A stretch of 34,501 nt of DNA from a virus: IMG/VR virus record IMGVR_UViG_3300043774_001222, positions 1 to 34,501 of that record; one strand, written 5' to 3'. The notes under the pieces were generated by a model. That model did not search any database. It was not told the DNA's origin and saw nothing but the letters and a program-made list of their open reading frames with translations. Made by a program: the position numbers and the translations under genes. Within the stretch, counting starts at the first letter, position 1. Each line of letters opens with the position of its first letter. Positions 5,901 through 34,501 of the stretch are shown piece by piece.

Positions 5901-6152
5901 TGTGAGTTTGGCGGCGTATTTCTTGAGCATGAGGTCGAGGCTCCAGTAGTAAGACCACCCGCCTAGTTCAACATGGTATCCGCCTGGGCATTCGCGGGGA
6001 ATGCGGTTGATTGTTTCGACGGCCTGCGTAGCCTCTTGCAATGAAGTGTCGCCGAGGCGGATTTGCTGTTCGGTGCCGCACTTGAGGCATTTGGTCGTCC
6101 AGATATATCCGTGCTCGTTGTCGTGGGATAGCTTTCCGTTTTGGTCAATCAT
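5871..6152 (-). CDS. Hypothetical zinc-binding protein (93 aa)
   Basis: Start at ATG 6152 (M-I-D-Q-N-G-K-L-S-H) overlaps the upstream stop by four bases. Residues about 22-25 form C-L-K-C; later C-P-G-G-Y-H offers Cys and His, so a small zinc site is plausible. The last residues (K-T-E-N-L-I-L-K-T) are encoded by the AT-rich repeat, so the original end was probably changed by insertion of that repeat. Confidence 0.65.
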   Translation of the reverse strand: MIDQNGKLSHDNEHGYIWTTKCLKCGTEQQIRLGDTSLQEATQAVETINRIPRECPGGYHVELGGWSYYWSLDLMLKKYAAKLTKTENLILKT

Positions 6153-7344: not shown

Positions 7345-7591
7345 GGATGGATTCAATGTGGTTGAGAAGGTATTCTTCGATATCGACAAGGGATTGGGTG
7401 ATCCGCTCCCGCCACTCGACGGCTACCTGCCATGGGCCATTGTTGCTGTATGGCAGGTAGTCACGGCTGTTGAACTCGATCTTTTCAAAGGCTTCGCGGG
7501 CGGCAACGATTGCGTCGTAGGCTTTGCCGTAGTCGTCGAGAAGTTGCGGCGCGGTCGTGCCGCCGAGGTGGATGGTTGGGAATGCTTTCAT
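7328..7591 (-). CDS. Hypothetical protein (87 aa)
   Basis: ATG 7591 overlaps the stop of the AAA+ ATPase gene by four bases, which fixes the start; the longer frame extending upstream is a shadow of the ATPase gene. Mostly helical (Y-D-A-I-V-A-A-R-E-A-F-E-K-I), ending N-H-I-E-S-I-H-E-Q-N-H. No family recognised; expected to be co-translated with the ATPase. Confidence 0.65.
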   Translation of the reverse strand: MKAFPTIHLGGTTAPQLLDDYGKAYDAIVAAREAFEKIEFNSRDYLPYSNNGPWQVAVEWRERITQSLVDIEEYLLNHIESIHEQNH

Positions 7592-9105
7592 GCGGCTTTG
7601 GCGATTTTGCGGGTTTTGGTTTCGGTGGCGGTGGGTTTGAGCGATGCCTCGGTGGCGCGGCCTTTGAGTCGGTCGCGGCGGGCTTGGATGGCTGCGCCCA
7701 TGGTCTTGGAGGTGGCGATGGTGCGGGAGAGTGCGGCGAGGGCGTCCTCGGTGGTGGGTGGGCGCTGGGCGTTGAAGGCGGCGACGAGCGCATCCTTCCA
7801 CACGGCTTCGATCTGGCGACCGGAGTAGCCCTCGGAGGCTTCGGCGAGGCGTTGCAGGTCGAAGTTCTCGATGTCCCAAGCGGCTTTCTGCTTGCCGCGC
7901 AGCTTGGCGATGTGGATGCGCCAGATGGCGAGGCGCTCTTCGTGGTGGGGGAGGTCTACGAGCCATGTCATAACGCGGTCGATCACGGGGTCTGGTATCT
8001 TGTCAATATCATTCGCCGTGAAGACATAGAAGATACCCTCGGAGTGGTCTTGCATATCTTGGATGATGGCTTTGATGACGCGATCGGAGGTGCCGCCGTC
8101 GGTGGTGGATCCACCCGTGCTACCGAAGAGGCCGTCCACTTCGTCGATCCAGAGCACGCAGGGGGCTACGGCTTTGGCAGTGGCATGGGCGGTGCGCCAG
8201 TTTTGCTCGCTCTGGCCGACGAGGCTGCCGAAGAGGCGGCCTGCTTCGAGGCGCAGGAGAGGGAGGTTGAAGACATTGCCCGTGGCTTTGGCGAGGAGCG
8301 ACTTGCCGGTGCCGGGGTGTCCGCAGGCGAGGAATCCGCGAGGAGGCTCGGTGCCGAAGTCGGCAGCGGCGTCGGTGTAGAGGTGTCGGTTGGCGGTGAG
8401 CCAGCCTTTGAGATTCTCCAAGCCGCCGATCCCGTCGAGAGTGGTGGGGTAGTCCACGATCTCCAAGATGCCGTTTTTGCGGATGGTGTTGGCCTTTTCG
8501 CGTTGGATGATGTCGGGCGAGATGTCGCCTGTCTCGACGATGGAGAGGGCGAAGGCGTCCTCGGCCTCTCCGGTGGTGAGGCCGGATGCGGCGGCGAGGA
8601 GTGGGGTGAGATCCTCGGGGAGCATGATGTCGGCACTCTCGGCGATGGATCGCAGCACGATGGCGAGCGATTCGCGGTCGGGCAGGCTGAACTCGATAGG
8701 GGTAATGAGCTTGGAGCAATCGACAGGAATCTTTAGCTCGGGGGCGAGGATGAGCAGGGTGATGCCGCGTGCCTTGCCTTGGATGAGGGCATCCTTGAAA
8801 CGGCGGATGAGCACGGCGTAGCCTGGGAAGTCGGGCGTGAGGAAGAGGTGGAAGTCACGCAGGAGCAGTAGGCTGTTATCTGGCATGGATTGCACGGATT
8901 CGAGGATTTCCACGGGATCGGTGATGCCTTCGACTGTGCCTGCGATGACTTCGTGGCGGCCTTTGGCGATATCCCACGCAAAGAGGAGTCGGTCTGTGGC
9001 ACCTGCGGCCTCGGCGATGGTGCGCTCGATGCGGGCTTCCTCGTGGCTCACGAGGTAGAGGCAGGGGTAGCCTGCTTTGAGGTAGTTGGTGATACGGGTT
9101 AGCAT
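7588..9105 (-). CDS. AAA+ ATPase, Ycf46-like (505 aa)
   Basis: The N-terminal half (1-220) resembles the degenerate P-loop region of Ycf46-type ATPases (L-L-L-L-R-D-F-H near 79-86). The second half is a full AAA+ module: Walker A G-H-P-G-T-G-K-S (262-269), Walker B V-L-W-I-D-E-V-D (317-324), sensor 1 F-T-A-N-D (362-366) and R377 in D-P-V-I-D-R, a possible arginine finger. The S-G-R-Q-I-E-A-V region matches the AAA lid. It presumably remodels proteins or nucleoprotein complexes. DUF2997 and DUF1257 genes lie upstream, an association also known from cyanobacterial and other bacterial genomes. It starts after an AT-rich leader repeat and ends K-I-A-K-A-A, like the protein at 12832. Confidence 0.88.
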   Translation of the reverse strand: MLTRITNYLKAGYPCLYLVSHEEARIERTIAEAAGATDRLLFAWDIAKGRHEVIAGTVEGITDPVEILESVQSMPDNSLLLLRDFHLFLTPDFPGYAVLIRRFKDALIQGKARGITLLILAPELKIPVDCSKLITPIEFSLPDRESLAIVLRSIAESADIMLPEDLTPLLAAASGLTTGEAEDAFALSIVETGDISPDIIQREKANTIRKNGILEIVDYPTTLDGIGGLENLKGWLTANRHLYTDAAADFGTEPPRGFLACGHPGTGKSLLAKATGNVFNLPLLRLEAGRLFGSLVGQSEQNWRTAHATAKAVAPCVLWIDEVDGLFGSTGGSTTDGGTSDRVIKAIIQDMQDHSEGIFYVFTANDIDKIPDPVIDRVMTWLVDLPHHEERLAIWRIHIAKLRGKQKAAWDIENFDLQRLAEASEGYSGRQIEAVWKDALVAAFNAQRPPTTEDALAALSRTIATSKTMGAAIQARRDRLKGRATEASLKPTATETKTRKIAKAA

Positions 9106-9107
9106 AG

Positions 9108-9140
9108 GAGTTTTAAGTTTTAAGTATTAAGTTTTAAGTT
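9108..9140 (-). repeat. AT-rich leader repeat C
   Basis: Minus strand ACTTAATACTTAAAACTTAA and onward, ending just before ATG 9105 of the ATPase. Confidence 0.8.
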
Positions 9141-9142
9141 GA

Positions 9143-9165
9143 AAAATCCTTATTGTAAGGATTTT
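9143..9165. repeat. Palindromic repeat B
   Basis: AAAATCCTTA-ttg-TAAGGATTTT. It supplies the C-terminal K-S-L-Q and stop codon of the gene at 9150. Confidence 0.85.
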
Positions 9166-9497
9166 GTGGCGGCGGCGAGGATGCGGTCTTCGGTGCAGAC
9201 CACGATGTAGATCATGCCTTCGGGTGGAGGGGGTATGGTGGGTTTTTCCATAACTTGAGTCCGGTAGGCATTGAGGGTTTCGATCGGCGTGGCAAGGGTG
9301 AGAGCCGGTATGCAGCCAGCGGCGAGTTGTTTGTCGCGATTGGCGATGAGGTTCTCGGTGGTCTCGTGCGCCTCGGCCAGTTGGAATGCCAACGGGTCGG
9401 TGAGATCGAGCACCCACAGGACATTGTTCTCGCCGGTGCAGGCGAGTTGAGCAACATCTTCGTGGTATTCGAGGAGCTTGATTTGTCTCTCGGTCAT
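9150..9497 (-). CDS. Hypothetical protein (115 aa)
   Basis: Starts at ATG 9497, overlapping the DUF2997 stop. Helical N-terminus (M-T-E-R-Q-I-K-L-L-E-Y-H-E), a hydrophobic strand N-N-V-L-W-V-L-D-L, then a second strand M-I-Y-I-V-V-C-T-E-D near the end. The final residues and stop come from palindromic repeat B, so the end may have been altered by that insertion. It lies between the Ycf46-like ATPase and DUF2997; function unknown. Confidence 0.7.
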   Translation of the reverse strand: MTERQIKLLEYHEDVAQLACTGENNVLWVLDLTDPLAFQLAEAHETTENLIANRDKQLAAGCIPALTLATPIETLNAYRTQVMEKPTIPPPPEGMIYIVVCTEDRILAAATKSLQ

Positions 9498-9688
9498 GCC
9501 TTTACTCGTTGGGCTTGGGTGGTGGTGCCGAGGGCGTAGTATTCCGGCTTTTTCTTGCGCGCTTTTTTGAGGCCGAGGGCTTCTTCGATTTCTTTCGTGG
9601 CTTGCTCACAGGCTCCACCTCGGAAGCCAGTAGCTTCCACGGTGACGGTGCCTGCGGCATCAATAGTGACTTCAATGGTTCTGTGCAT
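9494..9688 (-). CDS. DUF2997 family protein (64 aa)
   Basis: The pattern I-E-V-T-I-D-A-A-G-T-V-T-V-E-A, then G-F-R-G-G-A-C-E-Q-A-T and I-E-E-A-L-G matches the small DUF2997 family, known beside DUF1257 and AAA+ ATPase genes in cyanobacteria and other bacteria. The C-terminus is extended by a basic segment (K-K-A-R-K-K-K-P). Biochemical role unknown. It overlaps the next gene by four bases. Confidence 0.7.
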   Translation of the reverse strand: MHRTIEVTIDAAGTVTVEATGFRGGACEQATKEIEEALGLKKARKKKPEYYALGTTTQAQRVKA

Positions 9689-12615: not shown

Positions 12616-12830
12616 GAAAGTTTCCCTTTCTGCATTTGGGTGTGGACATAGCAGAGGTTGCGCGCGGATTCCTCGTGGTAGCGGGCGAGGAGTCGCACGA
12701 CTCCCATGAGTGGCGTTTCCTCTTCTTCGCAGAATGCCTCCACATACCCGGCTATGACGCCCAGCATGAGTGAGCGGTCACGGAGAATAGAGAACTCTTC
12801 TTTTGAAAGGGTGATTGTGGTGTTGGTCAT
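12612..12830 (-). CDS. Hypothetical protein (72 aa)
   Basis: Start ATG 12830 (M-T-N-T-T-I-T-L-S-K-E-E-F), one base after the upstream stop. Helical, with C-E-E-E-E-T-P-L-M-G in the middle and a basic end. Unknown role; overlaps the coiled-coil gene by four bases. Confidence 0.65.
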   Translation of the reverse strand: MTNTTITLSKEEFSILRDRSLMLGVIAGYVEAFCEEEETPLMGVVRLLARYHEESARNLCYVHTQMQKGKLS

Positions 12831-12831
12831 T

Positions 12832-13692
12832 TCAAGCGGCCTTGGCGATTTTGCGGGTGGTGGCGCCGAATTGCATGGCGATGTTGCTTGCGTGGACGGC
12901 GGCGAGGGTGCGGGTCTGTTGGTTCTTGCGCAGGGCATCGGCGGAGAAGGCGAGCTTGGTGCGGGCTTGGGCGGCGATGGCGGTGATGGTGGGGTCGTTG
13001 GTGATATTGAGCGCGGGGATGCGGTCGAGGTATTCCTGGAGTTTGGCGAGTGGGCCTTTGCGGTTCTCGCTGTCTACGATCGGGCCGTCATTGGCGAGGC
13101 TCTCTGCGGTGTCGGCTATGAGGCCGAGGAGGTTATCCAATACGGAGCGGGAAATCTGCGCGGTCGTGTTGGCGAGGCGTTGCTCGTAGTCGGCGGCGAG
13201 TCGCTTGCCGAGTTCGTCGGTGAGGGCATCGCGCACGAAGGCGTTTGGCTCCGGCATGGGGAGGATGGCGAAGTGGACGCGGAACTTGCTGGCGAGGTTC
13301 TCGCGGCTGGGGTAGTCCTCAAGTCTGAACGCGCCGTTTTTGTCGTAGCGTTCCTGCTCCAGCCAGATGTCGTAGCTGTCGAGCCACTTTTGGGCAAGGT
13401 CGCGGTAGGCGGCGGCGTATTCGCCCATGGTTGCCAGCCATTTCTCGCGCTCGGCTTCGACGCACACACGGATGTCGCCGATGCCGTCGAAGGTCATGTT
13501 TTTGTGAAACTTGCGCGCCTTGCGCTCGCAGGAGGCGAGGTCGTCGAGGCTGTTGCCCCAGAGTTGCTTCACGGCTTTGAGCGCCTTCTTGCCGGTGTGG
13601 AAGTGGTCGGTGAGGTGCTCGGTGAGTTCGTCGTCGGTCTTGGATTGGCCGGGGCGGCCGAACTTGATGGTGGCTTGCCAGAGTGTGTGCAT
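12832..13692 (-). CDS. DUF3150-like phage protein (286 aa)
   Basis: Mostly helical; an opening M-H-T-L-W-Q-A-T-I-K-F-G-R-P-G is followed by basic, aromatic-rich helices (W-L-D-S-Y-D-I-W-L-E-Q-E-R) and F-R-V-H-F-A-I-L-P-M-P. General length and pattern suggest the phage DUF3150 group, usually found beside AAA+ ATPases, but this assignment is tentative. The C-terminus T-T-R-K-I-A-K-A-A matches that of the Ycf46-like ATPase, encoded by nearly the same DNA. Preceded by an AT-rich leader repeat. Confidence 0.6.
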   Translation of the reverse strand: MHTLWQATIKFGRPGQSKTDDELTEHLTDHFHTGKKALKAVKQLWGNSLDDLASCERKARKFHKNMTFDGIGDIRVCVEAEREKWLATMGEYAAAYRDLAQKWLDSYDIWLEQERYDKNGAFRLEDYPSRENLASKFRVHFAILPMPEPNAFVRDALTDELGKRLAADYEQRLANTTAQISRSVLDNLLGLIADTAESLANDGPIVDSENRKGPLAKLQEYLDRIPALNITNDPTITAIAAQARTKLAFSADALRKNQQTRTLAAVHASNIAMQFGATTRKIAKAA

Positions 13693-13693
13693 A

Positions 13694-13724
13694 GGAGTTT
13701 TAAGTTTTAAGGATTAAGTTTTCA
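13694..13724 (-). repeat. AT-rich leader repeat C
   Basis: Minus strand ACTTAATCCTTAAAACTTAA and onward, immediately before ATG 13692. Confidence 0.8.
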
Positions 13725-14882
13725 GGCCTCGCAGGGTTCTTCTTTTTTCTCGCAAGGCGTTGCGGGTTCTGTTCGTATGGGCATGAGGACATGGGTGTTG
13801 CCTTTGATGCCGGTGAGGAGGCCGGGGGAGAGGCTATCCCGTGCGTCGATGCAGTCGCCGCCATTTTCAAGGGCGGTGATGAGGAACTTGGTGTCGTAGG
13901 TGGAGCGGCAGGGGGTGCCTTTGAGGATCGCGGGCTGGGTGAACGCGCCGCAGGGGTTGCCGTCTTTGTCCCTCACGCTGAAGGTGACTCCTGTCGGGGA
14001 CGGGGTGATGAGTGTGGGGGAATCCTTGGCGATGGCGGCGAGCTTGCGGAGGGCGGCGGCGGCTTGCGTGTTGTCGAAGCGCACGGAGTTGCCGCTGGCC
14101 TCGGGGATGACCTGCCGGTAGTTTGGGTAGTTACCCGCCTCGAGCTTGGATAAAATCCTTATACTAAGGATTCCTTGCTGCGCGCTGAAGGCGATGAAGC
14201 GTGGCGGGTCTTCCTCTTTGGCGAGGAGCGAGATCGCCGCTCGCTCGGGGATGAGCTTGCAGGCGGCGTTGGGGATGATGACTCCCTTGTGCTCGCCGAG
14301 TTGAAACGGGTGGGCGGACTCTTTGTGCAGGCGGCGGCCGTCGGTGGCGATGAGGTGGCCCTCGCCATCCCAGTAGATGCCGGTCAGGACAAGTCGCGTT
14401 TCGTCATTGGAGACGCAGCGCAGGAGTCGCTTGATCTTGTCGGTATCGAGGCACACGCCCAGGTGATGCTCGGTTTGTAGGGTTCCCGTCACGCCCGTGC
14501 CTGAGTCGGGGAAGTCTTCGGCGTTGTAGCCCCTTACGGGGACGGTGCTGGCCTGCCCGCCGATCGAGAAGGTGATGCTCGCCGGGGCGATGTGGATCGC
14601 GCTCTCGGGGTCGGCGGAGTTTGCGCAGTTGGCGAGGACAGCTGCCGGAACGACGACTGGCACGGCGCGATTCGCGGCGAGCTTGGCGGCGAGGCCGATG
14701 GGCTTCGGGGCGGGGATGGAGATGGTGGTCTCCCGATCCAAGTCTGTGGAGGTGAGCAGGATCGCGCCTTGGACGGGGGCGATCTTCACGCAGCCCAACA
14801 GGGCCAGCTTGGGCTTGCGGGGCGTGGTGCGCAGCAGGTGGCGCATGGCGGGGACGAGGTGTTCTTTGGAAATCGAGATCAT
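13722..14882 (-). CDS. DNA polymerase sliding clamp (beta subunit, DnaN-like; 386 aa)
   Basis: Start at ATG 14882 (M-I-S-I-S-K-E-H-L-V), coupled to the membrane gene upstream by ATGA; the longer frame is a shadow. Length is close to bacterial beta clamps (about 370). Signature strands include V-L-T-G-I-Y-W-D-G (165-173), A-T-D-G-R-R-L (179-185) and Y-P-N-Y-R-Q-V-I-P (252-260). The product should form a ring that tethers the replicative polymerase. Unusual: palindromic repeat B lies in frame, encoding I-L-S-I-R-I-L at about 238-244 in what should be a beta strand. The C-terminus lacks the usual clamp ending and finishes K-K-E-E-P-C-E-A. Confidence 0.9.
   Translation of the reverse strand: MISISKEHLVPAMRHLLRTTPRKPKLALLGCVKIAPVQGAILLTSTDLDRETTISIPAPKPIGLAAKLAANRAVPVVVPAAVLANCANSADPESAIHIAPASITFSIGGQASTVPVRGYNAEDFPDSGTGVTGTLQTEHHLGVCLDTDKIKRLLRCVSNDETRLVLTGIYWDGEGHLIATDGRRLHKESAHPFQLGEHKGVIIPNAACKLIPERAAISLLAKEEDPPRFIAFSAQQGILSIRILSKLEAGNYPNYRQVIPEASGNSVRFDNTQAAAALRKLAAIAKDSPTLITPSPTGVTFSVRDKDGNPCGAFTQPAILKGTPCRSTYDTKFLITALENGGDCIDARDSLSPGLLTGIKGNTHVLMPIRTEPATPCEKKEEPCEA
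14152..14172. repeat. Palindromic repeat B inside the sliding clamp gene
   Basis: AAAATCCTTA-tac-TAAGGATT, read in frame as part of the clamp. Confidence 0.8.
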
Positions 14883-15022
14883 AGCATAGTGAGGAGTTGG
14901 ACGGCGAGGATGCCGAGGATGGTTAAGAAGATGGCGAAGAGGCGGAAGAACCGCGCCTTGGCGGCGCGGTGTTCCGCTTGTTCCTTGTCTTCCCAGAGGA
15001 TTTCGGAGAGGTGGCGTGGCAT
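14879..15022 (-). CDS. Small membrane protein (47 aa)
   Basis: ATG 15022 shares one base with the upstream stop (TAATG) and its own stop overlaps the clamp start (ATGA). Residues 1-24 are charged (M-P-R-H-L-S-E-I-L-W-E-D); 25-47 form one transmembrane helix (F-F-R-L-F-A-I-F-L-T-I-L-G-I-L-A-V). Tight coupling on both sides argues for a real gene. Role unknown; possibly membrane anchoring of phage complexes. Confidence 0.6.
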   Translation of the reverse strand: MPRHLSEILWEDKEQAEHRAAKARFFRLFAIFLTILGILAVQLLTML

Positions 15023-15222
15023 TACTCGCTCCAGTCCTTGCTGCCGATGACGATGGCGTTGCCGGTGACTTGCAGGCGGGTGCCGTCGGCAAGGGTGACT
15101 TTGCCGTTCAGGTTGTAGCCCACGGAACCGGTGGAAAACTTCTTCCGTGTGGCGGCGATGGGTTGGCCAGAGATGAGTGGTGTGATTTCGGGGGCGGATG
15201 TGACGAATTGCGATTTGCTCAT
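15022..15222 (-). CDS. Hypothetical protein (66 aa)
   Basis: M-S-K-S-Q-F-V-T-S-A-P-E-I start at 15222. Beta-rich (V-T-L-A-D-G-T-R-L-Q-V-T-G-N-A-I-V-I) and possibly a small barrel or loop protein. It is the first gene of the clamp operon, after a structured intergenic region. Confidence 0.65.
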   Translation of the reverse strand: MSKSQFVTSAPEITPLISGQPIAATRKKFSTGSVGYNLNGKVTLADGTRLQVTGNAIVIGSKDWSE

Positions 15223-20328: not shown

Positions 20329-20625
20329 ATGAAAATAGAAGACGAAATCACGGAACTCTCCGAGCGCTGGTATGAACTCATCGGCGGCGAGCACCATAAG
20401 GATCGGGATTGCCACTGGTATGTGGAGGTGCGGTGGAGTTATGGGTTGCCGCAGGTGTATGTGGTGGTGCATGAGGGATATACTTTTGAGCGGATCGAGG
20501 AGGAGTTCAATACCTATGCCGAGGCTCTGGAGGGGTTGAAGGGATACCTGGAGCGGGCCGTCTCAGAAGAGATCGCCGAGCGCGATGACAGCGATGAGGG
20601 CGAGGAAGACGAAGAAGATTTATGA
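20329..20625 (+). CDS. Hypothetical acidic-tailed protein (98 aa)
   Basis: Follows the previous stop with no gap (TAAATG). M-K-I-E-D-E-I-T-E-L-S-E-R-W-Y-E-L-I, a beta-rich middle (V-E-V-R-W-S-Y-G-L-P-Q-V-Y-V-V-V) and an acidic tail (E-G-E-E-D-E-E-D). Unknown function; the acidic tail may bind a basic partner. Confidence 0.65.
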   Translation: MKIEDEITELSERWYELIGGEHHKDRDCHWYVEVRWSYGLPQVYVVVHEGYTFERIEEEFNTYAEALEGLKGYLERAVSEEIAERDDSDEGEEDEEDL

Positions 20626-23638: not shown

Positions 23639-23810
23639 AGAATACCCCAGGTGGGCTTGCCAAGAGTGCGGTGAGAAGCATGGAGCCAAGCCCAAGATGG
23701 ATCGCGTTTCGACTTGGCACTACGGCCAATGCGATGTGTGCGGCGGCCATAAAAGCGTCACCGAGCCGCGCGACTACGGGCATTTCCCTTATTGGTTTCA
23801 AACAAAGTAA
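23628..23810 (+). CDS. Small zinc-ribbon phage protein (60 aa)
   Basis: ATG 23628 (M-E-N-K-E-Y-P-R-W-A-C-Q-E-C-G). Two C-x-x-C pairs (C-Q-E-C and C-D-V-C-G), then the run V-T-E-P-R-D-Y-G-H, a pattern I know from small phage zinc-ribbon proteins. Function unknown. Overlaps the HNH gene by 11 bases. A shortened relative may start at 25141. Confidence 0.7.
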   Translation: MENKEYPRWACQECGEKHGAKPKMDRVSTWHYGQCDVCGGHKSVTEPRDYGHFPYWFQTK

Positions 23811-23815
23811 AAACT

Positions 23816-24481
23816 ATGGAATTTCAAGAGTTTCCGAAAATGCCGCGCTTGTCGCGGGAGATGATCGTGACCGAGAAGATCGACGGCACGAATGCCCATG
23901 TCTATATCGTGGGGAACCCCGAGGGGTTCTATACGGCGAAGCATCCCGATCCCTTGGTGATCGCGGAGGGGAATTGTGGTGGGGAGCCAGCGGTGATCTT
24001 TGCCGGATCGCGCTTGCGGTTCATCGCGCCGCAGGATGACCATTTCGGTTTCGCGGCGTGGGTGAGGGATCATGCTCAAGAGCTTTTCGGCTTGGGTTTT
24101 GGAAGGCACTTTGGCGAGTGGTGGGGGCGAGGCATTCAGCGCAACTACAGGTTGAATGAGCGGCGCTGGAGCCTTTTCAATGTGTCGCGCTGGTGCCTGC
24201 ACGGGCAGGAGCCGCAGCGTGTGCCGACCGCCGATCCTCGCATTGAGAAGTATCAAGAGCCTCTGCCTGAGTGCTGTGGCCTTGTGCCGGTGCTGCATAG
24301 GGGGCGGTTTTCTGTCCTGCAATGCGATATGGCTTTGGATGAATTGATGATCGGCGGCAGCAAGGCCGCTCCGGGGTTTATGAAGCCGGAGGGCATCGTG
24401 GCCTTCCATGTCGCGGGGAATGTGGGCTTCAAGAAAACGATTGAGAAGGACGAGGAGCCGAAGGGGATGGGCAAAGTATGA
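23816..24481 (+). CDS. RNA ligase, Rnl2-like family (221 aa)
   Basis: Start ATG 23816 (M-E-F-Q-E-F-P-K-M-P-R-L). Motif I E-K-I-D-G-T-N-A (K21 nucleophile), F-A-G-S-R-L-R-F-I near 62, then K-P-E-G-I-V-A-F-H as motif IV and F-K-K-T-I-E-K-D as motif V. This fits the phage RNA ligase family (PF09414-type) that seals RNA nicks or repairs tRNA. No separate C-terminal domain is visible. Whether it works with the reverse transcriptase RNA is only a speculation. Confidence 0.85.
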   Translation: MEFQEFPKMPRLSREMIVTEKIDGTNAHVYIVGNPEGFYTAKHPDPLVIAEGNCGGEPAVIFAGSRLRFIAPQDDHFGFAAWVRDHAQELFGLGFGRHFGEWWGRGIQRNYRLNERRWSLFNVSRWCLHGQEPQRVPTADPRIEKYQEPLPECCGLVPVLHRGRFSVLQCDMALDELMIGGSKAAPGFMKPEGIVAFHVAGNVGFKKTIEKDEEPKGMGKV

Positions 24482-26148: not shown

Positions 26149-27864
26149 ATGAACTTTCTGGATCGAGCAGTTTCTTTTTTTGACCCCGAGGCGGGAGTGA
26201 GTCGGGCGATGGCGCGGGAGCGGTTGAAAGCATTTGGGTATGATGCCGCGCAGCCTGGCACGAATCGCGGTGGCAGCGGCGGGAGGCAGAAGAACTCCTC
26301 CTCCGAGACATGGCGTATGCAGCGGGATCGTCTTGTGCTTTTGTGGGATGCGCGCGATGTGGTGCGGAATTTTTCGATCCTGCGCGGCATCATTTCGCGC
26401 ATCGTCCAATACACCGCCGATACCGTCCAGTATGTTTCGCAGACGGGGGATGAGGAGATCGATTCGATGTATCAGGACTATTTCCATGCGTGGTGCGAGC
26501 AAGCGGATATCACTGGTCGTCACCGGCTTGGTGCGCTGGTGTGGATGGCTATGTGGAGCTTGCTGGTCGATGGCGACCACGGCTGGCACTTGGTGCAGAT
26601 CGAGGAGGGCGGCAAGCAACAGCTTCGCATTCAGAGTATCGAGGCCGACCGCATCGGGGATCCGAACAATCCGATGAGCCCCGGCAACAACAACGACATA
26701 GGCGGCGTTATCGTGGACGACTTGGGCCGACCTGTCTCCTACCGCATCTTCAAGCGCGAGCGGCGCACGGCCTTGTATTCCTTTGAGAAGGAAATCCCTG
26801 CCGACCAGTTCATTCACATCTTCGACCCGATGCGGGTGGATCAATACCGAGGCGTCACGGCACTCTCGACCGTGATCGCTCCTGCGCGGGATTTGTATGA
26901 GGTGTATCACTTTGAGAAGCTCGCCGCCAAGTGGCAAGTCGGCCATGCGGGATTCATCAAGGTTTCAGACCCCACTCGGCGCGATGGCGGCATCTCGGCG
27001 TGGAATGGCACGAAGGACAACCGCCCCGACTCGCCCGGCACGATGGCGATGGAGGCAGGAAAAATCCAACGACTCTCGCAGGGCGAGGACATCCAGTTCG
27101 CTCCTGGCACGAACCGCCCGAGTGGAGCCTTCATGGCTCTGGTGCAGGTGATGGTGCGCGAGATCGCGAGCGGGCTGAATATGCCCTACGGATTCCTTTA
27201 TGACATGACGGCGTTCTCGGGTCACACGGGTCGCATCGAGATCGCGCAAGCCATGCGCTCGATCCGCCGCTACCAGAAGTTGCTCGCCGAGAAAGCCCTC
27301 GACCCGCTGCGTGATCGGGTGATCGGCCTTGGTATTTCTCTCGGTGATTTGCCAGCGCACCCGAAATGGCGCAGCGGCAGATGGGGCTTTGGCCGCTCGC
27401 TCACAGGCGATTATGGTCACGACACTTCGGCGAATCTCCAGCTTCTCTCTGCCGGACTCGTCACCGCCACCGACCTCATTGCCGAGACAGGACAATCCTT
27501 TGAGGAAGTGGTTCGCCGTAGCGCGAGCGAAGTCGCTTACTTGCAACGGGTCGCCACTGAAACTGGTGTGCCTATCGAACTCATCAATCAACGACTGCCT
27601 GGGCCGACTCAAGCCCTCGCCGCCATGGCCGAGCCGCCGCAGCCGCCGCCGCCTGGCCTCGTGCCGCAGGGGTTGGATGTGAAGCCGCTCTTGGAGCTTC
27701 TGAAAAATGTGGGCGAAGGGATATTGGATCGTGAAAGCGCGATTATCAATTTGATGAACCTGTATGGCGTGGAGCGCAATGCGGCTGAGAAGATGATCCC
27801 CGATGGGCCGAAGGAGAAGAGTTTAACCACGGAGAACACGGAGAGCACGGAGGGCGAGAAATGA
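26149..27864 (+). CDS. Phage portal protein, lambda type (571 aa)
   Basis: ATG 26149 (M-N-F-L-D-R-A-V-S-F-F). The N-terminal arm, the R-N-F-S-I-L-R-G-I-I segment near residue 72, the E-A-D-R-I region and the long helical hub (Y-G-F-L-Y-D-M-T, then S-A-N-L-Q-L-L) follow the lambda portal family (Phage_portal_2), which forms the dodecameric ring through which DNA enters and leaves the capsid. Length agrees with the family. The C-terminal residues (L-T-T-E-N-T-E-S-T-E-G-E-K) come from dispersed repeat A and are probably an acquired extension. A three-codon ORF (ATG AGC GTA TGA, 26141) overlaps the start. No terminase gene is seen just upstream. Confidence 0.93.
   Translation: MNFLDRAVSFFDPEAGVSRAMARERLKAFGYDAAQPGTNRGGSGGRQKNSSSETWRMQRDRLVLLWDARDVVRNFSILRGIISRIVQYTADTVQYVSQTGDEEIDSMYQDYFHAWCEQADITGRHRLGALVWMAMWSLLVDGDHGWHLVQIEEGGKQQLRIQSIEADRIGDPNNPMSPGNNNDIGGVIVDDLGRPVSYRIFKRERRTALYSFEKEIPADQFIHIFDPMRVDQYRGVTALSTVIAPARDLYEVYHFEKLAAKWQVGHAGFIKVSDPTRRDGGISAWNGTKDNRPDSPGTMAMEAGKIQRLSQGEDIQFAPGTNRPSGAFMALVQVMVREIASGLNMPYGFLYDMTAFSGHTGRIEIAQAMRSIRRYQKLLAEKALDPLRDRVIGLGISLGDLPAHPKWRSGRWGFGRSLTGDYGHDTSANLQLLSAGLVTATDLIAETGQSFEEVVRRSASEVAYLQRVATETGVPIELINQRLPGPTQALAAMAEPPQPPPPGLVPQGLDVKPLLELLKNVGEGILDRESAIINLMNLYGVERNAAEKMIPDGPKEKSLTTENTESTEGEK
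27823..27854 (+). repeat. Dispersed repeat A inside the 3' end of the portal gene
   Basis: TTAACCACGGAGAACACGGA and onward, read in frame as L-T-T-E-N-T-E-S-T-E-G. Confidence 0.85.
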
Positions 27865-28124
27865 GCAAGGCCGGTCAAAATTCGTTAAAGGGCTCGGGGT
27901 GTTTGTCGTATCGGCAGTCGGGGCAGAGGCGGCGGTATCTCACGCAGGAGGAGCGGGAGCGCATTTGGATGGAAGCTCTCAAGCGGGATATGGAGCGCGC
28001 GGAGGCGTATTTCTGGCGGCAGACGCCGGAGCGGCGGCGGGTGCAGAAGAACTATCTGGAGGCACACAAGGGATTTGGTCGGGAGGGGAATGATTTTATT
28101 TTTGGAAAGGGAAAAAAACGATGA
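27861..28124 (+). CDS. Small basic virion-region protein (87 aa)
   Basis: ATGA overlap with the portal stop. M-S-K-A-G-Q-N-S-L-K-G-S-G, very basic, with E-E-R-E-R-I-W-M-E-A-L-K-R and R-R-R-V-Q-K-N-Y. Position right after the portal suggests a head-completion or scaffolding-type protein, but there is no motif to prove it. Confidence 0.65.
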   Translation: MSKAGQNSLKGSGCLSYRQSGQRRRYLTQEERERIWMEALKRDMERAEAYFWRQTPERRRVQKNYLEAHKGFGREGNDFIFGKGKKR

Positions 28125-31100
28125 GTGAGAGAATTCGATTGGCTATTGAGAATGGGAAGAATGAGCGGTTGAGGCTGTTGACGCAAGGGTCGCTGGGTAT
28201 GAGGCTCAAAGAATTTCGCTATTATCAACCTCCTGGCGGTTTTTACGGAAATCCTTACGATAAGGATTTTGCTCAGGAGAGGCAGAAAGAGCGTCGCCAC
28301 GGGTTGATCAAAGCGGGCATCGTGGGCGCGGGTTTGCTGGGTGGTGGAGCTTTGCTGGGCCGTGGGTTGTATAAGGTCGGCAACAGCGGGGCCGTGCGGC
28401 GAGCCGAGGATCTGGCCGAGGAACTCTCGAAGCTGCGTGCCAGTAAGGCCGCTGCCGATGTCGGGAATGCCGCGCCTGCTCCGCGTGGCCGCCCGAAGTC
28501 CGTCGTTCAGCCTGCTCCGCAGACACCGCAGGCTCAGACGCCCCAGACGCCTCCCCCACAGCCTCCGCCACAGACGCCTCCGCCGACAGCCCCCAAGGTT
28601 ACTGGGAAGTCAGCGCAGCAAGTCAAGGCGGTCGAGAATCTGAATAAGCAGGGGGCATTATCGAATGCCGATGCCACCGCCGAGATGGATGAGATCGCAG
28701 CGGCAGCAGAAGCAGCCAAGCCGCCGCGCAAGCTCACGGCGAGGCAGCAAAAATTAGCGAACCGGCAGGCTAAAGTCGCCAAATTCGCCGCCGCTCAATC
28801 TGGAGGGACGGCCTCCGTGCCGTCTGCTCCCGCAGCGCCAGTCGCTCCGAAAACAAAGGCTCCCGTAGCTGCAAAGACTCCTGCCGCGCCCAAGCCTCCA
28901 GTCAAGACCCAAGCTCCTACAAAACCCGTCGCCAGCGCGACCAATCAGGAGTTTTGGGAGAAGAAAGGCGTCGGCAAAGTGCCGCTCACGGGAACGCCCG
29001 AGCAGAACGCTGCCCTGCGCAAAAGGTTGGAAGAGACTCATGCCGCTGGGGGGTTCAATGGCAAGGTCGCTGCCGATGTGATCGATGAGGCCCGCGCTTC
29101 GCTGAAACCGAAATCCGATTTTCCAGAAGGACTCAGCGATAAACTTCGCGCGGCAGGGAAGGAAAACAATCCGAAGCCTAAAGGTAAGAAAAATTCCAAG
29201 GCCAAAAAAGAGGATGCCGATGAGGCTGACGATCTCGACGATCTGGAGGCTGACGACATCAATGAACCGGATGCCTCGGCGGAAGAAGCCGATTGGGAGG
29301 CAAAGCTGAAGGAGAATCCCCAAGTGCGCGCCAAGAAGTCTGCCGCAAAGTCAGGCTCCAACAAGCCTGCTGCCAAGCCTGCCGCAAAATCCAAGAAAGG
29401 TAAAAAAGAGGAAGCTCCGCTTTCTCTTGCCGACAAAATCGCTGCCAAGGTCAAGGCGAAGCGCGACAAAAAGAATGGCAAGAATCTCTCGGCCCTCTTG
29501 CAGCGTGTGCGGTATTTCAATCAATTTCAAACCGACGAGGCGGGCATCCCGCTCACGGGTCGCGTGGCGAGGGATCGCTTCGTGAAGAAGCTCCGCGATG
29601 AGGACTTGGATCGCCGCGATGCGAATATCCTGCGTGCCGGTGGCGCGGGTGCGCTGGCGGGCCTACTGGCTCGTGGCCGCATCGGCGCGAGCAAGCGCGC
29701 ACTCATCGGCGCGGGTGCTGGCGGACTCGGCGTGATCGGTATCCGTGCCCTCACGAATAACGACCGCGACATCTACGGTGAGCGGGATCGCGGCAGCAAG
29801 CGCGCGGAGTTGCTCCCTGCCGTGGGTGGCCTCGGCGCGGCGGCTTGGCTTGCGGGTAAGCGGTTGAAGGCGTTTGCGGCGAAGTTTAACCACAAGAAAT
29901 TTAACCACAGAGGACACAGAGGACACAGAGGGCACAGAGGGCACAGAGGAGGGGTGAAGGAGTTTGCCGCGTATGTCGAAGATATGGCGATCGAGGGCCT
30001 TCCTAAAAATGTGCAGGCCGACATCGCTCGCTTTATCAATGCGAAGCCGGGCGATAAGGTGATCCACTACGGCATGGTTGTCTCGGAGTTGGCGATGATG
30101 GCGGACCTTCCGAATCTCAAGCTGGCCCGCGCAAATGTTTCCAAGCTCGAAAAAGCGAAGGCGGCAAAAATGGTTTTCGATCAGTTGAAGAAAGGCGAGA
30201 AATTCGTTCTGATCCTGAATGGCAAAGTGGTGGATGGCCATCACTTCATCGCCAAGGCGGAGCGTGGCGGCGTTACGAGTAGTCTCGATGTGATCGATCT
30301 CACTCCACTTCGCTTCCAGCATCTCTCCGCCCGTCTTCGCGGCGTGAAGAACTTTGACGACTACCGGCTCTATTATTTCAAGGGTCGCAATACGGGCATT
30401 GCCGCGCGGAGTGCGGAGGAGGCTCGTAAAAAGAAGAAGCGTGGCGGCGATGAGTTGGTGGCTGTGCGCACGCCGAGCGATTCCGAGAAAAGCCAGATGG
30501 CGCGTGGCATTTGGGTGCGGACTCGGCGCGATGGCAAGTCGCCTGGGCAGTCTCGCTATGGCAAGGGGCGTGGGCAGGGGCCAGCGCGGAAGAGCTTGAG
30601 TGCGAAGCTGCGCGGATTGAAAGAGTTTGGGGTGTTGAAGTCAAAGATCGTGCCGGTAATAGAAAGGGGTATTGATTTGATTACTGATTATGATCCTTTT
30701 GGGCACTTTGCACGGCGGAGAGCGAAGTATACCACTCAGCAGGCTAAGCATGTGCGTGCACAGGAAAGCGCGCACGCGGCAAGAATGTCCCAAATTCTTG
30801 GCAGCAAGTGGTCACCCAATTACGGTGAATCATATGGCGCGAAATTCTACACTAAAGAAGCAAAGGGATACCGCAAGCAGGCGGCTGATCGTTTCAAGCG
30901 GGACGCTGTAGTATCTGGGGCAGGATTAGTCGCTGCTGGTGCTGGAGCTGGATACTTGGCTACGCGCAAGAAACAACTTGCGGCGAAACTGCGCGTCAGA
31001 TTTTTCGAGAAAAAGCGTTTCGGGCCTCCAGCGGGTTTTTACGACAAAAACTCGCCCGAGTATTGGAATTCCCCAGAGCGGAAGGCCGAAAGGGAGGTGC

Positions 31101-32758
31101 TCCGGCAAGAGAATTTAAGGAAAGAGAACGCCCGGATTCCTCGGCATCTTCGCGCTCAAGGATGGTCTTGGACGGGTCGCTGGGATGGCAAAAAAGGCGG
31201 CGGATCAATTTATCGGGATCAAGATGGAAAGGATCACTATATTGGTAAGGATGGATTCAAGGGATTTTCCGCCCGCCTCCGTGCTATCAAATTTTTTGAG
31301 AAGCGGGATCGTGAGAAACGCGGTATGAACCCCTATGTGGGGGCTGCGCTCTCGGGCTTTGGCAGTGGTGCGGCACTTGGCTCTCTGGCGCTCTTGCGGC
31401 GTGGGGCGACATTCCGTGGCGCGGCTAAGACAGCGGGCAAGCTCGGCTTGGCCTCGGCGGGCATCGTGGGCGGCGGGGCATTGCTTGGCAGCAAGATCGT
31501 GGGCGATCCGCGCAAGGAGGAGTCCGCTCCCTTCATGAAGCGGGCGGCGATCGGCGGCACGCTGGTGGGCGCAGGCGCAGGACTCGGTGGGGCATTGCTG
31601 CTTCGCAAGACCAAGGGCGGAGCGCGGGCGCTCGTCGCGGCATCCAAGAAGAGCGAGCCATTTTCACGGCCTGCCATGTGGCTGCGTAAGTCGCCGCTTC
31701 TCGGGGCGACTGGCATAGGTGCGGTGGGTGGCGCTCTCTATGGGGGCGGCATGGGACTCGATGAGGGGCAGCAAGTGGACTCGATCCGCAACATTAAAAA
31801 AGATTTGAAAAAGAACCTCTCGTCCCGCTTGAAGCTGCGGTTCTTTGGCCGCTCCGACCAACCGCGCTGGGATGCCCGGCAGGGCGGTGGAGTGCAGTCC
31901 CACGAAGACTCGCAATTTGCACACCCTGCTTGGGGGTGGGCGAACGACCGTCCGATGTATGTCGCCAAGCGCGACAGCGCGGGCCGCGTCGTGCGGGATA
32001 AGGAGACTGGCGAGGCGATTCGCGTGAACTGGGATCCGAGTTCAGGTCAGCTCTGGAACTCGATAGCTCGCGAGGCGAAAAATAAGCGGGTCACTGTGCA
32101 GCGCGGCGGTCGCCTGACGAGGGATGTGGCACATGTCATTCAAGGCAAAGACCGCGAGCGCGATGCCAGTGGGCGCATCAAGAAGCGTGAGTGGGAGAAA
32201 AGCTGGTTCCACAACAAGGCCACTGAGATCGGCATGACAGCGGCGGGATTGGGCGGACTCGCCACCGTGCGCTATGCCAATAACAACCCGGATACCAAGA
32301 TCGGCAAAGCCTACACAAATACCCAGGCAAGCCTACGCGCTACGAAGGATGGCCTCTCGGAAATCGGTGGGAACATTTTGAAAGGCATCACCAAAATCAC
32401 CGCGAAAAAAGCGTTCTCCGCGAAGCTCAAGCGGCTCCGTGAACTCGATGCCATCGCGGAATACGAAGGCTGGGATGTCCGTGATCCGCGTGGCCGCTCG
32501 GCCCGTGTCTTCGCCCCCGGCAGCCGCAAGCGCGAACGCCGCCCGAAGGAATGGCATGAGAAGACGGAAAACGAGCGCAAGCTCTGGAAGGCAGGCATCG
32601 CCGCAGGCGTGCTCGGCGGCGTGGGAGTCACACTCGTCGGCCAACGCCTCGTCTCCGGCAAGTCGCTCATACCCTCGCGGTTTATGCCCAAGAAGGTAAC
32701 TCCACCCGATGCCAGTGTCTTTGTGGATGCGGCCAAGGTGTTCAAGGCAGGCGCTTAA
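28121..32758 (+). CDS. Giant modular virion-type protein (1545 aa)
   Basis: ATG 28121, coupled by ATGA. A Lys/Ala/Pro-rich, partly acidic linker (residues 100-450) alternates with glycine-zipper hydrophobic segments, such as L-I-K-A-G-I-V-G-A-G-L-L-G-G-G near 63, A-G-G-A-G-A-L-A-G-L-L near 505, V-V-S-G-A-G-L-V-A-A-G-A near 930 and L-A-S-A-G-I-V-G-G-G near 1110. Recurring L-S-A-K-L-R-type peptides end many modules (see findings). Residues 630-735 carry a ParB-like part (V-V-D-G-H-H-F-I-A-K). Two dispersed repeats are inserted in frame, giving N-P-Y-D-K-D and an R-G-H run. Large, modular and membrane-active-looking, it resembles ejection or channel proteins carried in the virion; not confirmed. 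Confidence 0.7.
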   Translation: MSERIRLAIENGKNERLRLLTQGSLGMRLKEFRYYQPPGGFYGNPYDKDFAQERQKERRHGLIKAGIVGAGLLGGGALLGRGLYKVGNSGAVRRAEDLAEELSKLRASKAAADVGNAAPAPRGRPKSVVQPAPQTPQAQTPQTPPPQPPPQTPPPTAPKVTGKSAQQVKAVENLNKQGALSNADATAEMDEIAAAAEAAKPPRKLTARQQKLANRQAKVAKFAAAQSGGTASVPSAPAAPVAPKTKAPVAAKTPAAPKPPVKTQAPTKPVASATNQEFWEKKGVGKVPLTGTPEQNAALRKRLEETHAAGGFNGKVAADVIDEARASLKPKSDFPEGLSDKLRAAGKENNPKPKGKKNSKAKKEDADEADDLDDLEADDINEPDASAEEADWEAKLKENPQVRAKKSAAKSGSNKPAAKPAAKSKKGKKEEAPLSLADKIAAKVKAKRDKKNGKNLSALLQRVRYFNQFQTDEAGIPLTGRVARDRFVKKLRDEDLDRRDANILRAGGAGALAGLLARGRIGASKRALIGAGAGGLGVIGIRALTNNDRDIYGERDRGSKRAELLPAVGGLGAAAWLAGKRLKAFAAKFNHKKFNHRGHRGHRGHRGHRGGVKEFAAYVEDMAIEGLPKNVQADIARFINAKPGDKVIHYGMVVSELAMMADLPNLKLARANVSKLEKAKAAKMVFDQLKKGEKFVLILNGKVVDGHHFIAKAERGGVTSSLDVIDLTPLRFQHLSARLRGVKNFDDYRLYYFKGRNTGIAARSAEEARKKKKRGGDELVAVRTPSDSEKSQMARGIWVRTRRDGKSPGQSRYGKGRGQGPARKSLSAKLRGLKEFGVLKSKIVPVIERGIDLITDYDPFGHFARRRAKYTTQQAKHVRAQESAHAARMSQILGSKWSPNYGESYGAKFYTKEAKGYRKQAADRFKRDAVVSGAGLVAAGAGAGYLATRKKQLAAKLRVRFFEKKRFGPPAGFYDKNSPEYWNSPERKAEREVLRQENLRKENARIPRHLRAQGWSWTGRWDGKKGGGSIYRDQDGKDHYIGKDGFKGFSARLRAIKFFEKRDREKRGMNPYVGAALSGFGSGAALGSLALLRRGATFRGAAKTAGKLGLASAGIVGGGALLGSKIVGDPRKEESAPFMKRAAIGGTLVGAGAGLGGALLLRKTKGGARALVAASKKSEPFSRPAMWLRKSPLLGATGIGAVGGALYGGGMGLDEGQQVDSIRNIKKDLKKNLSSRLKLRFFGRSDQPRWDARQGGGVQSHEDSQFAHPAWGWANDRPMYVAKRDSAGRVVRDKETGEAIRVNWDPSSGQLWNSIAREAKNKRVTVQRGGRLTRDVAHVIQGKDRERDASGRIKKREWEKSWFHNKATEIGMTAAGLGGLATVRYANNNPDTKIGKAYTNTQASLRATKDGLSEIGGNILKGITKITAKKAFSAKLKRLRELDAIAEYEGWDVRDPRGRSARVFAPGSRKRERRPKEWHEKTENERKLWKAGIAAGVLGGVGVTLVGQRLVSGKSLIPSRFMPKKVTPPDASVFVDAAKVFKAGA
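28249..28270. repeat. Palindromic repeat B inside the giant gene
   Basis: AAATCCTTA-cga-TAAGGATTTT, read in frame as N-P-Y-D-K-D-F. Confidence 0.85.
29901..29953 (+). repeat. Dispersed repeat A inside the giant gene, expanded
   Basis: Five tandem 9-base steps of the CACAGAGGA type, read in frame as R-G-H repeats (F-N-H-R-G-H-R-G-H-R-G-H-R-G-H). Confidence 0.85.
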
Positions 32759-32785
32759 AACTTTATTCTTAAAACTTAAAACTTA
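32756..32785 (+). repeat. AT-rich leader repeat C
   Basis: TTAAAACTTTATTCTTAAAACTTAAAAC type sequence, starting at the stop of the giant gene and ending at ATG 32786; the only copy in the right block and in the same orientation to its gene as the left-block copies. Confidence 0.8.
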
Positions 32786-33793
32786 ATGGACTCAAGACCA
32801 CGCAACAACAACGGCCAGTTTGCTCCCGAAGAGCAAGGCGGCATGGATCCGAATACCACCTCTGCGGCATACAATCCGCAAATCATCGAGGCCCGTAAAG
32901 CGACCCTCGCCGAGAAACTGCGTCGTGCCATTGGCCTACGCCGTGGCGTAGAGGAAAGCGTGCCGCAGGAGCAGCGGGTTCTTTCGAGGTTTGACCACAG
33001 AGGACACGGAGAGCACGGAGGGGTGAGGGAGTTTTCGATTCTTAATAAAATTTCCAATCTCACGGGAATGGCGCAGATCAAGGCCGGGCGCGACTCGTTG
33101 GGTGCGGCAAAATACAACAGGAGCCTTAGGGATGCTTATCGAGAAAGTGCCATCAAGGAAGCCAAGTATCCCTACCATGATGCTGATCTTAGGTATAGGC
33201 TTGAGAGCAGTGCGAGGCATGCCGCGATAGAGAGAGGCTTTTATGCTAAGAATGATGTGCGTCGAGCCAGAAAACTCATCAATGAAGGCGTCCGCCGCCG
33301 TAACATTTCGATTGGCGTCGGCGCAGGCGTGGTGGGTGCTGGCGCGGGTGCTGGGTATCTTGCGACGCGTGAGAAAGACCTCTCTGCTAAGCTCCGCTTG
33401 CGCGAGTTGGCGCGGCAGGCGGCTTATGATCCCTATGCGGTGCAGGCGCAGCCTGCGGAGCCGGGGCAGGCAGGCAGAGATTTTCGTAATGCGGCGCTCG
33501 GGATCGGGGCTTTGGGTGCTGGTGGAGGCGTGGCCTACGCAGGGTTTCGCGGAGCGCAGGCGGCTAAGAGCGCGCAGACGCTCACGGATGATGCGCTCAA
33601 AACCTCGGGCGAGGCTCGCAAGGCGGCTCGCTCGGCGAGGGTTGCGGCGGCGCGAGTGAATCGTGCTGGCAAGGTGATCAAAACGCAGCTCACGACCTTC
33701 CCGACTTTCAAGAAGGTGGCTTCCAAGATTTTTGAAGAGGATTTGCAAGGTCTCAAGGAACTCGCTGCGCGGAGCGTGGAGTTGAACTCATGA
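32786..33793 (+). CDS. Glycine-zipper virion-region protein (335 aa), related to the giant protein
   Basis: M-D-S-R-P-R-N-N-N-G-Q-F-A-P start right after the AT-rich leader. Contains the same building blocks as the giant protein: V-G-A-G-V-V-G-A-G-A-G-A-G-Y-L-A-T-R then L-S-A-K-L-R-L-R-E-L (about 199-208), and an Ala/Gly-rich membrane-like helix after residue 230. A repeat-A segment in frame gives F-D-H-R-G-H-G-E-H-G-G. Coupled to the next gene by ATGA. Likely works with the giant protein in the virion. Confidence 0.7.
   Translation: MDSRPRNNNGQFAPEEQGGMDPNTTSAAYNPQIIEARKATLAEKLRRAIGLRRGVEESVPQEQRVLSRFDHRGHGEHGGVREFSILNKISNLTGMAQIKAGRDSLGAAKYNRSLRDAYRESAIKEAKYPYHDADLRYRLESSARHAAIERGFYAKNDVRRARKLINEGVRRRNISIGVGAGVVGAGAGAGYLATREKDLSAKLRLRELARQAAYDPYAVQAQPAEPGQAGRDFRNAALGIGALGAGGGVAYAGFRGAQAAKSAQTLTDDALKTSGEARKAARSARVAAARVNRAGKVIKTQLTTFPTFKKVASKIFEEDLQGLKELAARSVELNS
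32991..33023 (+). repeat. Dispersed repeat A inside the 32786 gene
   Basis: TTGACCACAGAGGACACGGA and onward, read in frame as F-D-H-R-G-H-G-E-H-G-G. Confidence 0.85.
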
Positions 33794-34501
33794 ACCTTAA
33801 ATCCCGACTCAAGGAACTGGCGGCGAAGTCCGAGGAGAAGCGCAGTGGCGTGGGCCGTGCGGCTTTGATCGGGGCGGGTGTCGCGGCGGGTGGTTTGGTG
33901 GGGATGCGCACGCTGCCGCGTTTGCTGCCGAAGGGGCGCTTGGTTCAGGAGGGGGAGTCTCTTCTTGGCAAGGTGGTCTATAACAACCAGGGGCTCACGA
34001 CGCCTGCGGAGATCATTCATTTACCGAATGGGCGGAGCTTGCGCGGTGTGCTGAGGAAGAACCGCGAGGCGGCGGGCGTGAAGGGTGCGCTCTCGCGTGC
34101 GGCGCTGAAGGCGGATGAGTTTTTGGGCGTGCCGCAACGGCACTATGGCGTGGGTGTGGGCAGTGGGCGGATCGCCGAGGTGAGCAAATCGCGGGGGCGC
34201 AAAATTGTGGATCAGGCGGAATTCGGCAAGAAGGTGTATATCGACAACGATGGCAAGATTCTGCGTGAGCGGGGTATCCCGCAGCGGGCGGAAGGGCGCG
34301 CGGGCACAATGAACGATGCCGAGGTGGAGGCTTTCAACAAACGCTACGAGGCTTCGCAGGCCGACAAGCGCTGGGACCGTAAGAGTGTGTGCCCAGCGGG
34401 AGCGAATAACTGCGAGGCTTATGCGCGTGGCATCGGCACAGGCAAGGCGGTGAGCCGCCAAGTGCAGGCGATGCGTGTCGGCGCGATGGCTGGGGCTGTG
34501 G
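33790..34501 (+). CDS. LRAT-like (NlpC/P60 superfamily) protein (cut by the right edge)
   Basis: My translation from ATG 33790 (M-N-L-K-S-R-L-K-E-L-A-A-K) runs open for 237 residues. Residues 23-40 are a glycine-rich hydrophobic segment (A-A-L-I-G-A-G-V-A-A-G-G-L-V-G). The region 115-225 matches the LRAT/HRASLS-type papain-like fold: R-H-Y-G-V-G-V-G-S-G-R-I (H118) and N-N-C-E-A-Y-A-R-G-I (C208 as nucleophile), then a G-K-A-V-S-R-Q-V ending as in N-C-E-x-F proteins. Such enzymes act as acyltransferases or hydrolases on lipids or peptides; in a virion a cell-envelope function is possible. It opens with a version of the L-x-S-R-L-K motif. Confidence 0.7.
   Translation, partial: MNLKSRLKELAAKSEEKRSGVGRAALIGAGVAAGGLVGMRTLPRLLPKGRLVQEGESLLGKVVYNNQGLTTPAEIIHLPNGRSLRGVLRKNREAAGVKGALSRAALKADEFLGVPQRHYGVGVGSGRIAEVSKSRGRKIVDQAEFGKKVYIDNDGKILRERGIPQRAEGRAGTMNDAEVEAFNKRYEASQADKRWDRKSVCPAGANNCEAYARGIGTGKAVSRQVQAMRVGAMAGAV

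Follow-up and report, generated by a model that had tools for sequence, protein, structure and literature searches.

In bacteriophage T4, the head protease gp21 cuts after the sequence L/I-x-E, and residues 1–10 of IPIII suffice for entry into the capsid, with residues 4 and 7 acting in targeting and residues 8 and 10 in processing (PMC9026906). In phage P1, an N-terminal peptide directs a large effector, DarB, to the capsid; in the part of that report considered here, the signal is N-terminal only and is not reiterated at module joints (PMC9024508). The polyvalent proteins are multi-domain proteins of portal-terminase phages. They combine peptidase- and transferase-like modules and are predicted to enter the virion and to be injected, and the sections of that study considered here describe no linker tag between their modules (Iyer et al. 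2017, PMC5512222). The ejection proteins of SPN3US and phiKZ have short protease sites ending in Glu, several per propeptide, but these propeptides are mostly long, have another consensus (A-x-E in SPN3US) and belong to non-modular proteins (PMC10052503).

Here, we analyzed the head gene block at the right end of the window, by which we mean the whole 34.5 kb stretch of an IMG/VR virus record. A short peptide of the type LSAKLR recurs in its predicted cargo proteins. Like the T4 CTS (IPIII, IPII, IPI and Alt, all processed by gp21), the peptide is found as a short N-terminal tag on unrelated head-cluster proteins, with hydrophobic residues near positions 4 and 7, L/I-x-E at its end, and a protease with a predicted gp21 fold in the same head cluster. 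Unlike the T4 CTS, it has a different sequence, recurs inside multi-module proteins, at their joints, and has L or F after the Glu, which most copies in the giant genes do not have; its processing is a prediction. The proteins of this group share with the polyvalent proteins the combination of distinct domains, with peptidase- or effector-type modules, in one phage polypeptide, but the same recurrent tag between modules sets them apart from the polyvalent proteins and from DarB. Capsid-targeting tags, polyvalent proteins and the DarB signal were already known. The repetition of a tag from joint to joint in a cargo polyprotein appears to be a new variant; a literature search for such a tag in shuffled cargo polyproteins found none.

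The upstream edge of the cargo cluster is a portal protein of the lambda family at 26149–27864 on the plus strand (Pfam PF05136, E 3.8e-49; phrog_21). A small gene at 27861 lies between it and three plus-strand genes, which encode a giant modular putative cargo protein of 1545 aa (28121–32758), a second modular protein of 335 aa (32786–33793) and an LRAT-like protein (33790–34500) that is open at the window end. Several head-block genes overlap by four bases. The two modular proteins had no match in Pfam, PHROGs or NCBIfam, and tblastn of the giant protein against 50,697 phage records gave no match. The LRAT-like protein matched Pfam LRAT weakly (E 0.15, 12.8 bits against a cut-off of 24.3), with HYG and NCE conserved. 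The window stops upstream of the protease gene, and the protease was taken from relatives with 95–99% identical portals, in which the next genes of the block encode a metallophosphoesterase, a protease-scaffold protein and a major capsid protein of 318 aa (match to the PHROG major head protein, E 1.8e-33). The window also encodes an RNA ligase upstream of the head block (23792–24481; PHROG 548, E 1.1e-19). On the minus strand, it encodes an AAA ATPase (7588–9105; E 8e-23) and a protein with a weak sliding-clamp-like match (13722–15092; DNA pol III beta, E 1e-4).

The first-pass annotation had reported LSAKLR in all three of these proteins. A profile combined with a six-frame scan bore this out for two of them. 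In the giant protein, seven copies were found, against 0.22 in shuffles of the same protein: LSALLQRVRYFN at residue 456 (29486–29521), LSARLRGVKNFD at 735 (30323–30358), LSAKLRGLKEFG at 826 (30596–30631), LAAKLRVRFFEK at 953 (30977–31012), FSARLRAIKFFE at 1049 (31265–31300), LSSRLKLRFFGR at 1233 (31817–31852) and FSAKLKRLRELD at 1432, originally given as 1431 (32414–32449). The copy at 826 continues with L-K-E and that at 1432, which heads a conserved C-terminal module, with L-R-E; the other five have no L-x-E. The 335-aa protein has one copy with L-R-E, LSAKLRLRELAR, at residue 199 (33380–33415). The N-terminus of the LRAT-like protein, MNLKSRLKELA (33790–33822), with E at residue 9, is a degenerate tag and not a copy of LSAKLR. 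These eight were the only sites found anywhere in the window. The copies had also been said often to follow a glycine zipper; this was the case, directly, at residue 953 of the giant protein and residue 199 of the 335-aa protein, that is, for 2 of the 8 copies, and not for the others.

Further tag-like stretches are all on the plus strand, as are the copies above. A degenerate tag, LGMRLKEF, lies near the giant N-terminus (28193–28216), and a C-terminal remnant, GLKELAARSVELNS*, ends the 335-aa protein (33746–33793) where its relative L005 runs on into another module. At two joints, a DNA repeat of the CACAGAGG type, read as HRG, is followed by a Glu-bearing sequence: LKAFAAKF, the repeat and GVKEF, with V-K-E (29864–29965), and LSRF, the repeat and GVREF, with V-R-E (32981–33034). 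As a separate observation, this type of repeat occurs in coding sequence at module joints and can be read as HRGHRG or, in a different frame, as TTENTE. It is present in the window at 29906–29952, 601–620, 1443–1462, the portal gene end (TTENTESTEGEK) and 32981–33034. A Spartobacteria MAG has 17 occurrences and Verrucomicrobium BvORR034 has 8, whereas a reversed-pattern control gave none.

A 12-column profile, built from the copies in the window and its relatives, gave 84 matches (76 distinct) in the 14 contigs made up of the window and those relatives, compared to 0–1 in shuffles. All 76 distinct copies were in genes between the portal and the metallophosphoesterase. In seven relatives, 57 profile matches fell in 62 kb of cluster and none in 195 kb of other strand-sequence, and a degenerate DNA pattern applied to ten whole records agreed with this confinement, except for scattered matches to other peptides. 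In five Verrucomicrobiota genomes (22 Mb) with related head genes, no motif DNA was found. Relatives of the metallophosphoesterase outside the group did not have the motif either; this gene is common to unrelated tail regions. Past the capsid gene of L021, two genes (12791–13684 and 13819–14715) have tags (LSANLKPALRELAARSEAITEF), so that putative cargo is not restricted to the interval between portal and protease.

The copies mark the boundaries of modules: in this family of Verrucomicrobiota phages, almost every exchangeable block in the proteins encoded next to the head genes, which are probably injected, starts with the peptide. When the proteins were compared to each other, homology blocks started within 8 residues of the motif center in 41% of cases, compared to 6% for random positions, and blocks ended just past the motif. 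In the giant-gene copies, the downstream side was conserved and the upstream side often non-homologous. Judged from these alignments, exchangeable modules have the motif as their N-terminal tag. The clearest cassettes were at residue 199 of the 335-aa protein, where exactly at the tag a 97-residue module is inserted in L005 and a different, 257-residue module with HExxH in L007. The outer flanks are 88–98% identical to the window, the inserts are unrelated, and the tag copies on either side of the insert differ by one base in 33 (97% DNA identity). Modules also occur both fused and free: the module SVELNSITYHETNAD is fused in L005 and a separate gene in L014, and the LSxKQKxG module, a separate gene in L015, is part of a fusion in L004, L008 and L013. 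Fused tags sometimes retain a vestigial start codon (FSMNTKLRLREL), and the old start is likewise kept in the fused copies FSMNTKLRLRELARQ of L010 and L014. The modules that could be named were DUF5872 (E 2.8e-5, below the Pfam cut-off), GNAT (weak, E 0.001), HExxH patterns, present in 15 cluster proteins, and the doubtful LRAT. For a module in the L007 protein at 6114, phmmer against the PDB gave no match, so that its ART-like label is guesswork based on YHGT.

Selection on the peptide had been argued from the observation that codons differ between copies. This is true of the giant gene, in which the motif codons have a pS of 0.59 and a pN/pS of 0.32, so that the peptide has been maintained although synonymous sites are nearly saturated. 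It applies only in part to the LSAKLRLREL copies in the shorter genes, which use TCC in 22 of 26 cases, compared to a usage of 19%, and are alike in DNA well beyond codon bias. This likeness suggests that recombination occurs at the joint: shared tag DNA would be a natural place for it, consistent with the cassette swaps.

The first-pass annotation gave only the LSAKLR half of the motif, but its most constant part outside the giant genes is the tail L-x-E-[LF], which 36 of 37 copies there possess, compared to 12 of 39 inside (Fisher p 3e-10). The residue between L and E may be R, K, V, E, H, Q, M or I; a near-invariant L and E around a variable middle residue is the pattern of a protease site. 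Beyond the profile matches, the shorter cargo proteins contained 29 [LI]-x-E-[LF] sites, compared to 6.7 expected, nearly all of them further tag copies at protein ends or joints. The portal genes had a weak excess of L-x-E-[LF] (7 vs. 2.5 expected, z 2.8), and there was no excess in capsid, tape-measure and minus-strand window or replication-side genes. On this pattern, cuts are predicted in the giant protein after E31, E614, E835 and E1441, in the 335-aa protein after E82, E207 and E325, and in the LRAT-like protein after E9. Another match in the giant protein, at E656 (VSEL), is probably due to chance. Five giant joints (456, 735, 953, 1049 and 1233) should stay joined according to their sequence.

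The protease domain of the L005 protein encoded at 20343 was modeled with AlphaFold from 23 homologues, giving a pLDDT of 80, compared to 46 for the full protease-scaffold protein modeled from 8 close homologues. The best Foldseek match of the protease model was 5jbl (E 1.4e-4). The model aligned with T4 gp21 with Z 11.5 over 130 residues (VIA), with herpesvirus proteases next at ~7, and the candidate catalytic residues H70 and S121 are invariant in the 23 homologues. A protease profile run against PDB sequences matched coiled coils and no protease. The model thus indicates that the head protease of this group has the gp21 fold, and we infer its cut specificity from that fold alone. In the scaffold half of the same protein (L005 20343–21659, residues 310–327), the stretch LSALQKQVRELSARF resembles the cargo tag. 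This may reflect mimicry of a scaffold helix by the cargo, or no more than a coiled-coil-like character of both.

When the protease alignment was used as the query, matches extended to phages with a protease only 35–54% identical and to five bacterial genome contigs, every one from Verrucomicrobiota. In the prophage of Verrucomicrobium sp. BvORR034, the tag has a divergent form (FSEL). In these distant relatives, separate genes from portal to protease start with MNPIQRLVELSARC, MTPLSRLRELSEKS, MNALSRLRELSAKT, MNHMTRLKELSARC, MDCLKRLRELSEKI and others, a tag of the form M...RLxELSA at the N-termini of separate genes; one such gene also has three internal LSAKDRLRELA-like copies. The N-terminal signature was found in 21 of 194 pre-protease ORFs, a count that takes in spurious ORFs and leaves 173 in the interval without a tag, compared to 0.9% of shuffles. 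Most N-terminal tags combine L7 with E9, and position 4 is usually hydrophobic; of the 16 tagged N-termini with LxE, 10 have the Glu at residue 9. L153 encodes a distantly related LRAT-like protein that has no N-terminal tag; an internal LQQRVVELGRA copy lies further on, at its junction with an RPRNNNGQF module. In the L153 gene at 8479–9540, LRAT-like and RPRNNNGQF modules are joined in the reverse order relative to the window, with the tag-like MGALQQRVVELGRA at the joint.

The explanation that we favor, and consider somewhat likelier to be right than wrong, is a T4-like capsid-targeting and cleavage tag that is repeated at the cassette joints of fusions resembling polyvalent proteins. In its basic form, M-x-x-L-x-R-L-x-E-[LF]-[AS], it would stand at the start of the product of a single cargo gene. 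The tag would send the cargo into the prohead core alongside the protease-scaffold protein, and the gp21-like head protease would cut after the Glu of L-x-E. Cargo genes arranged in a string with overlapping ends would often fuse, each module retaining its tag, now internal, as [LF]SA[KR]LR-LxE-[LF]. The fusion would be a polyprotein, separable at tags bearing Glu and left joined at those without it, which are mostly in the giant gene, and the common tag DNA would provide a short homology tract for inserting or swapping cassettes (HExxH peptidase-like, GNAT-like and other modules). We infer packaging, cleavage and ejection from position, pattern and the T4 parallel; recombination through the tag is likewise a deduction. 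We put forward only tentatively the fuller version, a plug-in effector system in which one peptide would be capsid-targeting signal, protease cut site and DNA homology for cassette exchange all at once, and in which loss of the Glu would switch cutting off at chosen joints.

Of the roles originally proposed for the peptide, two are compatible with the evidence, a cleavage site and a virion-packaging signal, and T4 offers the precedent of one short N-terminal tag for both (PMC9026906). Cleavage cannot explain why the LSAKLR half is conserved in the 27 of 39 giant-gene copies without Glu, and this half may therefore have a job of its own, such as scaffold docking. If that were its only job, every module would bind the prohead core and the peptide would stay uncut. 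The Glu-less copies are consistent with such a packaging or docking tag, as are the scaffold stretch described above and the packaging of P1 DarB via its N-terminal 30 residues (PMC9024508). We consider it unlikely, however, since a single tag per polypeptide would suffice, and since outside the giant gene the near-invariant L and E point to a protease site. The third proposed role, a membrane-interacting helix, would act in DNA ejection. Glycine-zipper segments are common in the modules and directly precede some copies, but the copies have low helical moments that do not agree with each other, with no consistent amphipathic helix, and the core spacing differs between copies, so that we hold this role to be very improbable.

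It is also conceivable, but improbable, that the internal copies are leftovers of fusion whose DNA is kept for cassette exchange and which have no present role as protein. The 97% DNA identity of the flanking copies, the strong codon bias of LSAKLRLREL, the vestigial Met codons and the coincidence of joints with homology breaks would all be expected of such scars. Against this, the peptide persists in the giant gene despite near-saturated synonymous sites (pN/pS 0.32), and the same peptide pattern is found at the N-termini of unfused genes in distant phages. Autoproteolysis by HExxH peptidase modules within the fusions, as suggested for P1 DdrB and predicted in PMC5512222, would accord with the many HExxH modules among the relatives; we give it very little credence, as the three tagged proteins of the window have no HExxH.

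If the favored reading of a targeting and cleavage tag is correct, it would explain how a phage lineage can change its injected proteins without loss of packaging, and it would extend the logic of T4 head proteins to polyproteins, with a prediction of cut or no cut for each joint. Virion cargo could also be recognized by a sequence rule in phages of uncultured Verrucomicrobiota, for which searches of database families give almost no matches.

A repeated unit of another kind was also seen in the relatives. It has constant ends and a variable middle (ARGDYAIPALGKMLRDRSMLEEFLTGxRGPKMGD...variable...AKMLRKGRAGGDVYExIDR) and is found in different genes, at L007 6114–8351, L004 8636–11170, L008 4615–5472 and residues 742–850 of the L007 protein at 8400.
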